Positions 42,245-60,786 of a stretch of DNA of 64,000 nucleotides are shown one piece after another. The position numbers and the translations under genes were made by a program. Every line of letters begins with the position of its first letter. Within the stretch, counting starts at the first letter, position 1. The notes below the pieces were generated by a model that saw nothing but the letters and a program-made list of their open reading frames with translations, did not search any database and was not told the origin of the DNA. This DNA is from Sphingomonadaceae bacterium (GTDB taxonomy: Bacteria; Pseudomonadota; Alphaproteobacteria; Sphingomonadales; Sphingomonadaceae): NCBI GenBank assembly GCA_030147805.1, contig JASBUR010000051.1, positions 1 to 64,000 of the forward strand, given 5' to 3'.

Positions 42245-42634
42245 ATGTTCATGCTCGACACCAATGTCTGCATCGATTTCGCGCTAGGCCGCAGTGATGT
42301 CCTGCGCGCCCGCGTGCGCCGCTTCTACAACAGCGGCCTCGCCATTTCCGCGATCACGCTCGCCGAACTCAGGGTCGGTGCGCGTCATCCTGACGCCGAT
42401 CCTGAAGATCAGCGGCGGCTCGACGTGCTGATCGGGACGCTCAATCTGCACGATTTCGATGGGCGTGCTGCGGACGACTACGGCTCGCTTGCGCGCGAAG
42501 TCGGGGTGAAGCGTGCGAGCTTCGACCGTCTGATTGCGGCCCATGCACGCTCGCTCGATCTAACCCTCGTCACAAACAATCCTCGTGACTTTGCCGACGT
42601 CAAAGGTCTGCGTGTCGAGAATTGGTGCGCATGA
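42245..42634 (+). CDS. vapC: VapC-type PIN-domain toxin
   Basis: A 129-residue PIN-domain ribonuclease. The acidic triad region is intact: D5 in [10 protein letters not shown], the Glu in [10 protein letters not shown], and the Asp pair around [11 protein letters not shown] with [11 protein letters not shown] at the end. VapC toxins cut initiator tRNA or rRNA. The sequence [16 protein letters not shown] and [12 protein letters not shown] are like VapC of the enteric/MvpT type. Its stop codon overlaps the trmD start (ATGA). Confidence 0.92.
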
Positions 42635-57377: not shown

Positions 57378-57761
57378 TCAGCGGATGAGCTGAACCTCGA
57401 CCCCGACCGCGCCGGCGATTCTAAGCCAGGCGCGGTCGGCGGTCAGGGCGGGACAGCCGAGCCGCCTGGCGAGCGTGAGGCAGAAGCGATCACCCAGCGA
57501 CAGGCCGGCGCTGCGCGTAGCCGGTTCGAGCAGTCCGGCCGCGATGGCGAGTTCGCGGTCGGCCGCGATGACGAGCGGCAGCGCCGCGTCGAGGCTGGCC
57601 TTGACCAGCGCATCGTCGGCACCACGGGCCAGCCTGGCCGCCACTTCGCTTACATTGACGGCGCTGATCGTTGCGTCGCCGATGACCGACGCAACGATGT
57701 CGCTGCCGGGTTCATCGAGCAATGCCGCCAGCATCGCCGAGGCGTCGAGCACCACCGTCAT
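57378..57761 (-). CDS. PIN-domain (VapC-like) toxin
   Basis: A 127-residue PIN protein. Acidic residues are in VVLDASAMLAALLDEPG (D6), the Glu in VNVSEVAARL, and the later LSLGDRFCLTLARR, LTADRAW. This matches the VapC family, RNA-cleaving toxins. ATG 57761 overlaps the stop of the upstream gene by 4 bases (ATGA), the typical toxin position in a TA operon. Convergent with ahcY. Confidence 0.85.
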   Translation of the reverse strand: MTVVLDASAMLAALLDEPGSDIVASVIGDATISAVNVSEVAARLARGADDALVKASLDAALPLVIAADRELAIAAGLLEPATRSAGLSLGDRFCLTLARRLGCPALTADRAWLRIAGAVGVEVQLIR

Positions 57762-58201
57762 TCGTCGCCCCACAGGGCCCGACGATCTGCCAGGAAGGCG
57801 TCGACGGTCCCGATCTGCGGCGCGGCCTCACGCAGCAGCGCCTGCGCCCGCGCCAATCCGTTTGCGGTCGAGCCGCCCACCGTCTCCGCGGCCGCAGTTC
57901 GCGCGCGAACGACGGGTGCGTAGACCGCCCCGGAGACAAAGCTTCGGCCCGCGGACAGCCGCTTCTTGGCGACGGGACGCCAGCCGCGCTGGGCGAGGAT
58001 GTCGCGAACCCATCGGCCGACCTGCTGGCGTTCGACGTCGTCCAGATGGCCGACCTGATCAGCCACGGCCTCATCCAGCGCCTCGACGGCCGGCGCCCCT
58101 CGTCGCGACAGCGCCTCCATTGCCGCCACCACTGCAGGGTCGGCGAACAAGGGCGCCAATGTCACTCCCTTGGCCGATCTCTTGAACTCGTCATATGTCA
58201 T
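57758..58201 (-). CDS. Putative antitoxin partner of the PIN toxin, unfamiliar type
   Basis: A 147-residue protein starting MTYDEFKRSAKGVTLAP. It has no AbrB, PHD, RHH or HTH motif that I can see. The middle (VERQQVGRWVRDILAQRGWR) is basic and helical, and the end (GRSFVSGAVYAP) resembles endings of some proteins annotated as VapC partners. Position directly upstream of a PIN gene with ATGA overlap supports an antitoxin role. A 12-base direct repeat lies just before its start. ATG 58201 has AGGTG close upstream. Confidence 0.6.
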   Translation of the reverse strand: MTYDEFKRSAKGVTLAPLFADPAVVAAMEALSRRGAPAVEALDEAVADQVGHLDDVERQQVGRWVRDILAQRGWRPVAKKRLSAGRSFVSGAVYAPVVRARTAAAETVGGSTANGLARAQALLREAAPQIGTVDAFLADRRALWGDE

Positions 58202-58203
58202 CG

Positions 58204-58233
58204 CGCACCTATATAGATGTTCGCACCTATATA
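58204..58233. repeat. 12-base direct repeat before the PIN module
   Basis: CGCACCTATATA occurs at 58204-58215 and 58222-58233 with a period of 18 bases. It lies 3 bases upstream of the putative antitoxin start (minus strand) and includes TATATA elements usable as -10. Likely operator/promoter of the module. Confidence 0.55.
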
Positions 58234-58311
58234 TGCAGCTATGCAGTCGCCGCCAAGCCGGCTGCCGATTCAGATCCGACGTTCGCTTGCGGGGCGACTC
58301 GCGGGGGCGCT

Positions 58312-60786
58312 ATGCTTGCGCTTGTGGGCGTAGGGCGCTTTCTCATCGTGATGATCGCCGGCTGCGTTTGGCCAGCGCGGCTGGTTGCGCTCGACTTCGA
58401 CCTGACCGACCGCGAGATCGGCGTGTCGACGACGGCGATCATCGCCGCTGCCTGGCTGGCCTTCGCGGTCTGGGCGATCATCCGCGGCGCGCGCTCGGGC
58501 GTCCAGGCGCGGATCGCGCAGACCTGGGGCATGCGGCTGCGCGGGCTGCTCAGCACGGCGCCCGGCGCCTATCTCGTCGTCGGCGCCGACGGCAGCGGAT
58601 TCTGCTCGGACGCGCTGCGCGGCTGGCTCGACATCAACCACAAGGTGGGGGCGCTCGACGATCTGGCGCCCACCCCGACCAGCGGCATCGTCGCCGAGGA
58701 TTTCGAGCTTCTGCGCGCCGATATCGCGGCGCTCGCCATGGCGGGCAGCGACTTCACCCGACTGGTCCGGGCGCAGGGTTCGGCGCGCGTGCTGATTGCG
58801 CGCGGGCGCACCGCCCCCGAAGCGGTGGCCGGCGAACATGGCGTCGTCGTCTGGTTTCGCGACGCCACCGACACGCAGGCCGAGGTCGAAACCTTGCGTC
58901 GCGAGACGCAGGAACTCGCCGCCGAGCTCCAGGCGGCGGCGGCGCTGCTCGAGGCGGCGCCCTATCCGATCTGGCGCCGCGGCGCCGACCTGAAGCTGCG
59001 CCACGTCAACGCCGCCTATGTCGAGGCGGTCCAGGCGGCGAGCGCCGAGGCGGCGGTCGCCGAGGGCGCCGAACTGGTCCAGAATCCGCTGTCGCTGTCG
59101 CCCGACCCGGTGGCACGCCGTGCGCTCGAGCTCGGCCAACCGCAGCGGCGCGAACAGCCGGTGACCATTGCCGAGCAGCGCCGGCTGCTGCAGATCGTCG
59201 ACGTGCCGCTCGGTGAAGATGGCGTCGGCGGCTATGCGATCGATGTCACCGATCGCGCCGCGGCGCGGCACGAGCGCGACCGGCTCGAACTGGCGCAGCG
59301 CGAGACGTTCGACCGCTTGTCGGCGGGTGTCGCGCGCTTCGCCGCCGACCAGAGCCTCGTCTTCCACAACAAGGCGTTCGGCGACCTGTTCAGGCTCGAG
59401 CATGCCTGGCTCGAGGAACGGCCCGAGTTCGTGCGCGTGCTCGAACGGATGCGCGAGACGCGCCGGCTTCCGGAACAGAGCGATTTCCCGTCGTGGCGGC
59501 GCGCCCGGCGCGCCTGGTTCACCGATGCGGTCGAGGCGGTCGAGGAAACCTGGGCGCTTCCCGATTCGAGCGTCATCCGCGTGATCGCGCAGCCGCATCC
59601 CGATGGCGGGCTGCTGATGGTGTTCGAGGACCGCACCGAGCAGCTGAAGCTCGCCTCGTCGCGCGACACGCTGGTGCGCGTCCAGCAGGCGACGCTCGAC
59701 AATCTGCACGAGGCGGTGGCGGTGTTCGGCGCCGACGGGCGGTTGCAGCTCGCCAACAAGCGTTTCGCCGAGCTGTGGGCGCTCGACGGCGCGCTGCTCG
59801 TCGGCAAGCCGCACATCGACGAGCTGCTGTCGGAGACCGAGCACCTGGTCGGCGACCCGGGGCGCAACGCCCGCGTCCGCGAACTCATTCACCTGACCAC
59901 CGCCTCGGACCGGCGCGAAGCGCACTTCGACCGCGTCGACCTGCGCGATGGCCGCGCGCTGGATTTCGCCGCCGTGCCGCTGCCCGACGGCAATGCGCTC
60001 TTCACCTATCTCGACGTCACCGACAGCCAGCGCATCGAAACCGCGCTGCGCGACCGCAACGAGGCGCTCGAAGCCGCCGACCGCCTCAAGTCGGCGTTCG
60101 TCGCCAACATCTCCTATGAACTGCGCACCCCCCTTACCGCGATCAGCGGCTTCGGCGAGATGCTCGCCGCGGGCTATGCCGGCGAGCTCAATCCGCGCCA
60201 GGCCGAATATGTCGGATCGATCGTCACCTCGTCCGACCGGCTGCAGCTGCTCATCGACGACATCCTCGACCTCGCGATCACCGAGGCCGGCCAGCTGGCG
60301 CTCGATATGGGAAATGTCGGCATCGAGCCGCTCGCGCGATCGGTGGCGGCGATGGCGGCCGATGCGGCGCAGACGCGCGGCCTGACGCTCGACGTCGCAG
60401 TCGACGACTCGGCCGGCGCGGTCGAGGGCGACGAGCGGCGGCTGAAGCAGGCGCTGTTCAACCTCGTCGGCAACGCCATCCGCTTCACCCCGGCGGGGGG
60501 CCATGTCGAGCTGACCGCCACCGGCAACGCCCGTGGCGTCACCATCCGCGTCGTCGACAACGGCGTCGGCATCCCCGATGCCGAGCAGGAGCTGGTGTTC
60601 GACCGCTTCCGCAAGGGCTCGAACGCCGGCCCGCAGGGCGTCGGGCTCGGCCTCGCGCTGGTCCGCCAGTTCGTCGAACTGCACGGCGGCATGGTCGAGC
60701 TCACGTCGCGCATCGGCGGCGGCACCACGATGACCGTACGGCTGCCGCGCAAGCAGTCGATCGCGCATGCGACGGGGGTGGAATGA
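58312..60786 (+). CDS. divL: DivL-like sensor kinase with Tyr in place of the phosphorylated His
   Basis: An 824-residue membrane kinase: one or two N-terminal helices (FLIVMIAGCVWPA and TTAIIAAAWLAFAVWAII), several PAS-like domains (about 90-580), then a dimerisation domain and an HATPase domain. The H-box reads ANISYELRTPLTAISGF, with Y602 where histidine kinases have His. Caulobacter DivL has the same exchange. ATPase motifs are VGNAIRFTPAGG, VDNGVGIPD and GVGLGLALVRQF. DivL controls CckA through binding of DivK in the cell-cycle network. ATG 58312 has GGGGG upstream; the longer ORF overlaps the PIN module promoter. tsaE overlaps its stop. Confidence 0.85.
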   Translation: MLALVGVGRFLIVMIAGCVWPARLVALDFDLTDREIGVSTTAIIAAAWLAFAVWAIIRGARSGVQARIAQTWGMRLRGLLSTAPGAYLVVGADGSGFCSDALRGWLDINHKVGALDDLAPTPTSGIVAEDFELLRADIAALAMAGSDFTRLVRAQGSARVLIARGRTAPEAVAGEHGVVVWFRDATDTQAEVETLRRETQELAAELQAAAALLEAAPYPIWRRGADLKLRHVNAAYVEAVQAASAEAAVAEGAELVQNPLSLSPDPVARRALELGQPQRREQPVTIAEQRRLLQIVDVPLGEDGVGGYAIDVTDRAAARHERDRLELAQRETFDRLSAGVARFAADQSLVFHNKAFGDLFRLEHAWLEERPEFVRVLERMRETRRLPEQSDFPSWRRARRAWFTDAVEAVEETWALPDSSVIRVIAQPHPDGGLLMVFEDRTEQLKLASSRDTLVRVQQATLDNLHEAVAVFGADGRLQLANKRFAELWALDGALLVGKPHIDELLSETEHLVGDPGRNARVRELIHLTTASDRREAHFDRVDLRDGRALDFAAVPLPDGNALFTYLDVTDSQRIETALRDRNEALEAADRLKSAFVANISYELRTPLTAISGFGEMLAAGYAGELNPRQAEYVGSIVTSSDRLQLLIDDILDLAITEAGQLALDMGNVGIEPLARSVAAMAADAAQTRGLTLDVAVDDSAGAVEGDERRLKQALFNLVGNAIRFTPAGGHVELTATGNARGVTIRVVDNGVGIPDAEQELVFDRFRKGSNAGPQGVGLGLALVRQFVELHGGMVELTSRIGGGTTMTVRLPRKQSIAHATGVE

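Follow-up and report, generated by a model that had tools for sequence, protein, structure and literature searches.

A VapBC-like gene pair in a Sphingomonadaceae genome whose putative antitoxin joins an AbrB-type tail to a head domain of no assigned family

Results

Within the 64-kb stretch of DNA that was analyzed (the window), two overlapping genes on the minus strand encode a PIN-domain (VapC-like) protein of 127 aa (57378..57761) and, directly upstream of it, a proposed antitoxin of 147 aa (57758..58201), which we call the partner. The limits of the partner gene follow from its ORF and from orthologous pairs with the same start region: it starts at the ATG at position 58201, with a Shine-Dalgarno-like sequence, AGGTG, about 6 nt upstream, and stops at 57758. 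The PIN gene runs from the ATG at 57761, three bases ahead of the coordinate that the overlap by itself would give, to 57378. The two frames share the start-stop overlap ATGA (57758..57761, minus strand), as a preliminary description of this DNA had reported, and a four-base overlap occurs at all four intact junctions, being ATGA in the window and TTGA at the three others. The gene pair is real and is conserved as a unit.

The PIN protein matched PF01850 with an E-value of 5e-13, above the Pfam cut-off, and its acidic residues D6, E39, D91, and D109, and also E17, are conserved in 30–31 of the 31 sister PINs, i.e., PINs from the same family, which are approximately 40–55% identical to the window PIN. 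In a sequence search of the PDB, the closest solved PIN was VapC30, at an E-value of only 0.2. The pair shares with VapBC a PIN domain with conserved acidic residues in the proposed toxin and, directly upstream and coupled to it, the proposed antitoxin gene, whose product of 147 aa exceeds the usual antitoxin size.

Eight PIN genes were detected in the genome by profile, seven of which were over the Pfam cut-off. The partners of the other seven PINs match Pfam models of the AbrB/MazE, RHH/FitA-like, or Phd type, in some cases under the curated cut-off, and the window PIN at 57378..57761 is the only one of the eight whose partner has no such match at its head. The window also contains a second module, with a PIN gene at 42251-42607 on the plus strand and an AbrB/MazE-type partner (PF04014, E = 1e-4, slightly short of the cut-off); both of the vapC-like modules that had been noted in these 64 kb are therefore real.

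The same pair occurs at the ahcY/tsaE site, as in the window, in genomes G039 (locus L002) and G104 (L007), and the L007 proteins are the same in sequence as those of a Polymorphobacter MAG (L023). A fourth intact pair was found in Sphingomonas changbaiensis (L025, with the same proteins as L008), where it is flanked by eno and an ftsB-like gene. The intact pairs represent four lineages at the level of genera and occupy two genomic sites, and their partners are 37–44% identical to the window protein. Where relatives lack the pair, ahcY is directly followed by the next gene (in L065, tsaE is 52 bp downstream; in several others, a histidine-kinase-like gene is close after ahcY), so the pair is an accessory insertion. 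It is also rare across the sampled genomes: in the family search, the partner profile matched in 10 of 401 genomes, and a PIN pair was present in only 5 of these 10, one of the five being broken. The class, order, and phylum samples yielded no additional PIN pair, a tblastn search of plasmids and phages gave no match, and no relative was found in viral contigs. Matches at L003 and L092 were discarded because these frames lie within other genes or on the strand opposite to them.

In Sphingomonas horti (L026/L014), both genes are broken at the eno/ftsB site that the intact pair of S. changbaiensis occupies: the partner sequence is spread over two frames and includes a TGA, and the PIN match likewise falls in two frames. 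This broken copy would suit the view that the toxin–antitoxin module has ceased to be active in the window genome and is a relic kept by chance. However, both frames are open in the window, the catalytic acids and the tail arginines are retained, and the pair is conserved over divergent genomes, which makes a relic very unlikely.

The partner gene is separated by a 110-bp intergenic region (58202..58311) from a divergent histidine-kinase-like gene with a likely start near 58312; the mechanical start of this ORF (58195-60786, plus strand) overlaps the partner gene. The region contains a 12-base direct repeat with a period of 18 bases (58204..58233; copies at 58204-58215 and 58222-58233), which is a candidate operator or promoter element. 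The repeat, CGCACCTATATA, is exact in both copies, and no direct repeat of that length arose in 1000 dinucleotide shuffles of the 110-bp stretch; the rest of the 64 kb has about eight non-triplet 12-mer repeats within 60 bp. The repeat and its period had been described correctly, and the repeat exceeds chance. The preliminary description had further deduced from it a mode of DNA binding unlike that of AbrB or RHH antitoxins, and this deduction is not supported. First, the core of the repeat, TATATA, is self-complementary, and the site can also be read as TATATAG-N10-CTATATA, a reading that is not significant alone (p = 0.165). Second, the proximal copy includes the likely Shine-Dalgarno sequence, AGGTG, before the partner start codon, so ribosome binding may account for some of its conservation. 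Third, the repeat has no counterpart in the relatives, in whose upstream regions direct repeats were not significant (p = 0.07–0.19, uncorrected over several patterns), and two of these regions have 8+8 inverted repeats: L002 (p = 0.024, uncorrected over several patterns tried) and L008 (p = 0.01, uncorrected, with the 10-base spacing of the window site). The region upstream of L007 had neither a significant direct nor a significant inverted repeat, no operator motif was common to all four members, and a promoter and terminator scan of the window's intergenic region found none. From these sequences, a binding mode cannot be read from the repeat.

The kinship of the partner to known antitoxins lies in its C-terminal part. 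Of the 28 loci examined, 27 encode an AbrB-like antitoxin just upstream of the sister PIN (recognized by eye; 25 of the 27 have an unambiguous ORF in the list, and the others are known by their tails). All 10 of the sister antitoxins sampled match PF04014, 8 of them over the curated cut-off. G039 and G104 each have, besides the new-headed pair, a second locus with a sister PIN and an AbrB antitoxin. A tail profile of 37 positions was built from 26 AbrB antitoxins cut after the AbrB core, with no partner sequence included. The window partner scored 34.0 bits against this profile (E = 1.9e-9 among 1,580 ORFs, taken from the window and the loci), over residues 115–142 (GLARAQALLREAAPQIGTVDAFLADRRA; 57776..57859, minus strand), the predicted toxin-binding tail. 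The scores of the other partners were 21.4 bits for L002, 20.6 for L007, and 17.4 for L008, the last being a weak match of the eno-site member. All four partners outscored every unrelated ORF: once AbrB antitoxins and partners are set aside, the best of the 1,580 scored 11.2 bits (E = 0.025), and the top score of 20,000 shuffled partner sequences was 13.7 bits. The comparison was conceived after the resemblance had been seen, with a profile that itself excluded the partners, so its weight is carried by the shuffles and the ORF background. All 26 AbrB tails have the first Arg of the RR motif, as do three of the four partners; the fourth partner has Lys instead. Judged from this comparison, residues 115–142 are homologous to the C-terminal tails of the AbrB/MazE antitoxins beside the sister PINs.

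Some antitoxin folds neutralize through a globular domain (PMC10440598), and one could imagine that the head of the partner itself neutralizes the toxin, with the tail as a minor or vestigial contact. This is highly improbable, because the tail is kept in all four intact members, is shared with the AbrB antitoxins of the sister PINs, which have unrelated heads, and is exactly the part missing from a PIN-less form in Brevundimonas.

We also considered how often the head was exchanged. In the PIN tree, the three toxins of the ahcY site form a group that lacks strong support, and the toxin from the eno site is placed elsewhere. The four new-headed PINs do not form one clade in the best tree, yet a single clade was not rejected by the AU test (p = 0.148), so the new-headed pairs may have arisen by one head exchange or by two.

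The structure of the partner was predicted with AlphaFold2 on a four-sequence alignment. Residues 1–97, which form the N-terminal head domain (57911..58201, minus strand), were modeled with high confidence; the linker (residues 98–111; 57869..57910, minus strand) had low confidence and was disordered at residues 100–110 (pLDDT < 50); and two C-terminal helices, at residues 112–129 and 133–145, had moderate confidence. Residues 1–100 modeled alone gave a pLDDT of 93.8 and a pTM of 0.85. The head consists of five helices and then a beta hairpin, in the order helix, helix, helix, one-residue bridge, helix, helix, strand, strand, an arrangement that is winged-helix-like.

The partner matched no family in Pfam, NCBIfam, or PHROGs; no RHH or Phd/YefM domain was found in Pfam at E-values up to 5, and no PDB sequence matched below an E-value of 0.15. 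There was no PF04014 match, and the head, with its predicted helices and hairpin, lacks the swapped-hairpin N-terminal domain of the AbrB/MazE type. Foldseek gave no significant match for the full model in the PDB and viral models, and nothing significant in the PDB for the model of residues 1–100 (best E = 0.41). A single, weak PADLOC match to the C-terminal part of a CARF-HEPN model (E = 0.019) was read as chance. Because Foldseek found no significant match in the PDB or viral models, a DNA-binding role of the head is something that we infer from its position and from its winged-helix-like order of elements in the model. In the preliminary description, the partner was called unfamiliar, an HMM and structure search of the 147-residue protein was proposed, and a match to a known antitoxin was named as refuting the idea. 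That search gave a divided answer. For residues 1–97, which match no Pfam, NCBIfam, or PHROGs family and no PDB fold, the term holds; the tail matches the AbrB-antitoxin tail profile and is thus of a known antitoxin type, which partly refutes "unfamiliar" on that reader's own terms and strengthens "antitoxin."

Outside these pairs, the head matched a family of proteins of 184–192 aa (hhalign probability 96, E = 3e-9), found at L004 (1192-1746, minus strand), L005 (1450-2013, plus), L011 (1255-1833, minus), and L028 (1258-1818, minus). The genes at L004 and L005 adjoin a DUF6088/AbiEi-like gene, and that at L004 also adjoins an HNH_5 gene. Two proteins of 268 aa, at L029 (1027-1833, minus) and L094 (1492-2298, plus), have the head domain at the N-terminus and a remainder without assignment; one of these two comes from another class. 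In Brevundimonas halotolerans (L024, 3995-4312, plus), the head occurs alone as a protein of 105 aa, with no tail or PIN neighbor, near an hsdM-like gene. At L012 (1258-2100, plus), a head-like stretch is present in a 193-aa protein, immediately followed by an 86-aa ORF of unassigned kind.

Since the head also occurs without a PIN neighbor (L024, L029, and L094), its function need not be toxin regulation. The module may be a real toxin–antitoxin system in which the head is a sensor or protein-binding domain that frees or activates the toxin on a trigger, e.g., phage infection. Such a role would suit a domain that has no confident match to a DNA-binding fold and whose relatives adjoin DUF6088/AbiEi-like and HNH genes, and sensor roles have been proposed for other antitoxin domains (Panacea; PMC10440598). 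However, the order of helix, bridge, helix, helix, and beta hairpin is that of a winged helix, the AbrB head at the same position in the sister antitoxins is DNA-binding, and inverted repeats lie upstream of two members. On balance, we consider the sensor role rather unlikely.

Discussion

The best explanation of these observations, to which we assign a probability of about 0.78, is that the pair is a chromosomal type II VapBC-like module with a chimeric antitoxin, in which a known neutralizing tail is carried on a new head. The PIN protein would be the toxin, presumably a metal-dependent RNase, and the partner, made first and translationally coupled to it via the ATGA overlap, would be the antitoxin. 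The C-terminal tail (approximately residues 112–147) may wrap the PIN protein and place R140/R141 at the acidic active site, like the tails of AbrB-type VapB. The AbrB DNA-binding domain would be replaced by the N-terminal head, which probably binds the promoter located between 58202 and 58311; the complex may in this way repress its own operon. More tentatively, the head could be the founding member of a regulatory domain not described before, which in defense or toxin–antitoxin loci of alphaproteobacteria has been joined to PIN-neutralizing tails and other C-terminal halves and which possibly acts as a sensor rather than solely as a repressor.

If this chimeric module is as described, it is a clean natural case of a known neutralizing tail on a different head with the toxin still recognizably the same, and it illustrates on a small scale the way in which bacteria rebuild their antitoxins out of interchangeable parts. 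AbrB-headed sisters exist in the same genomes, and the model of modular antitoxins is therefore directly testable by head and tail swaps between loci. The analysis also names an uncharacterized domain that recurs beside defense-like genes.

Several known systems can be compared with the window module. In the VapBC of Shigella, the C-terminal region of VapB inhibits VapC, and its Arg64 replaces a metal ion (PMC3384007). Like the AbrB/MazE-type VapBC (PF04014; Shigella flexneri, PMC3384007), the window module has a PIN toxin and an antitoxin gene that comes first with a short overlap, and its antitoxin tail is homologous to the AbrB tails of sister PINs. In contrast to AbrB-type VapB, the N-terminal AbrB domain is absent and a helical and hairpin domain of approximately 97 residues is present instead, and the new-headed antitoxins have 143–153 aa, compared with about 80 for AbrB-type VapB. 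Makarova et al. (2009) listed RHH, AbrB, Phd, COG2442/DUF433, COG2880, COG1753, and MerR-like proteins as PIN partners (PMC2701414). The window pair shares with these the combination of a PIN toxin and a putative DNA-binding antitoxin, whereas its head, compared here by Pfam models, matches that of no such family. The 184–192 aa alphaproteobacterial proteins beside DUF6088 (L004, L005, L011, and L028) have the N-terminal domain in common with the window partner but differ in the C-terminal half and have no PIN neighbor in the ORF lists. In Panacea fused to Phd-C (PMC10440598), as here, a separable neutralizing tail is found on a different globular domain, although the head, toxin, and tail are all different, and the exchange described here is known from sequence comparison alone. 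That antitoxins are modular, with exchangeable linear neutralizing elements, is an accepted model (PMC10440598), and the window module, with a tail of known type on a separate head, fits this model with a new head.
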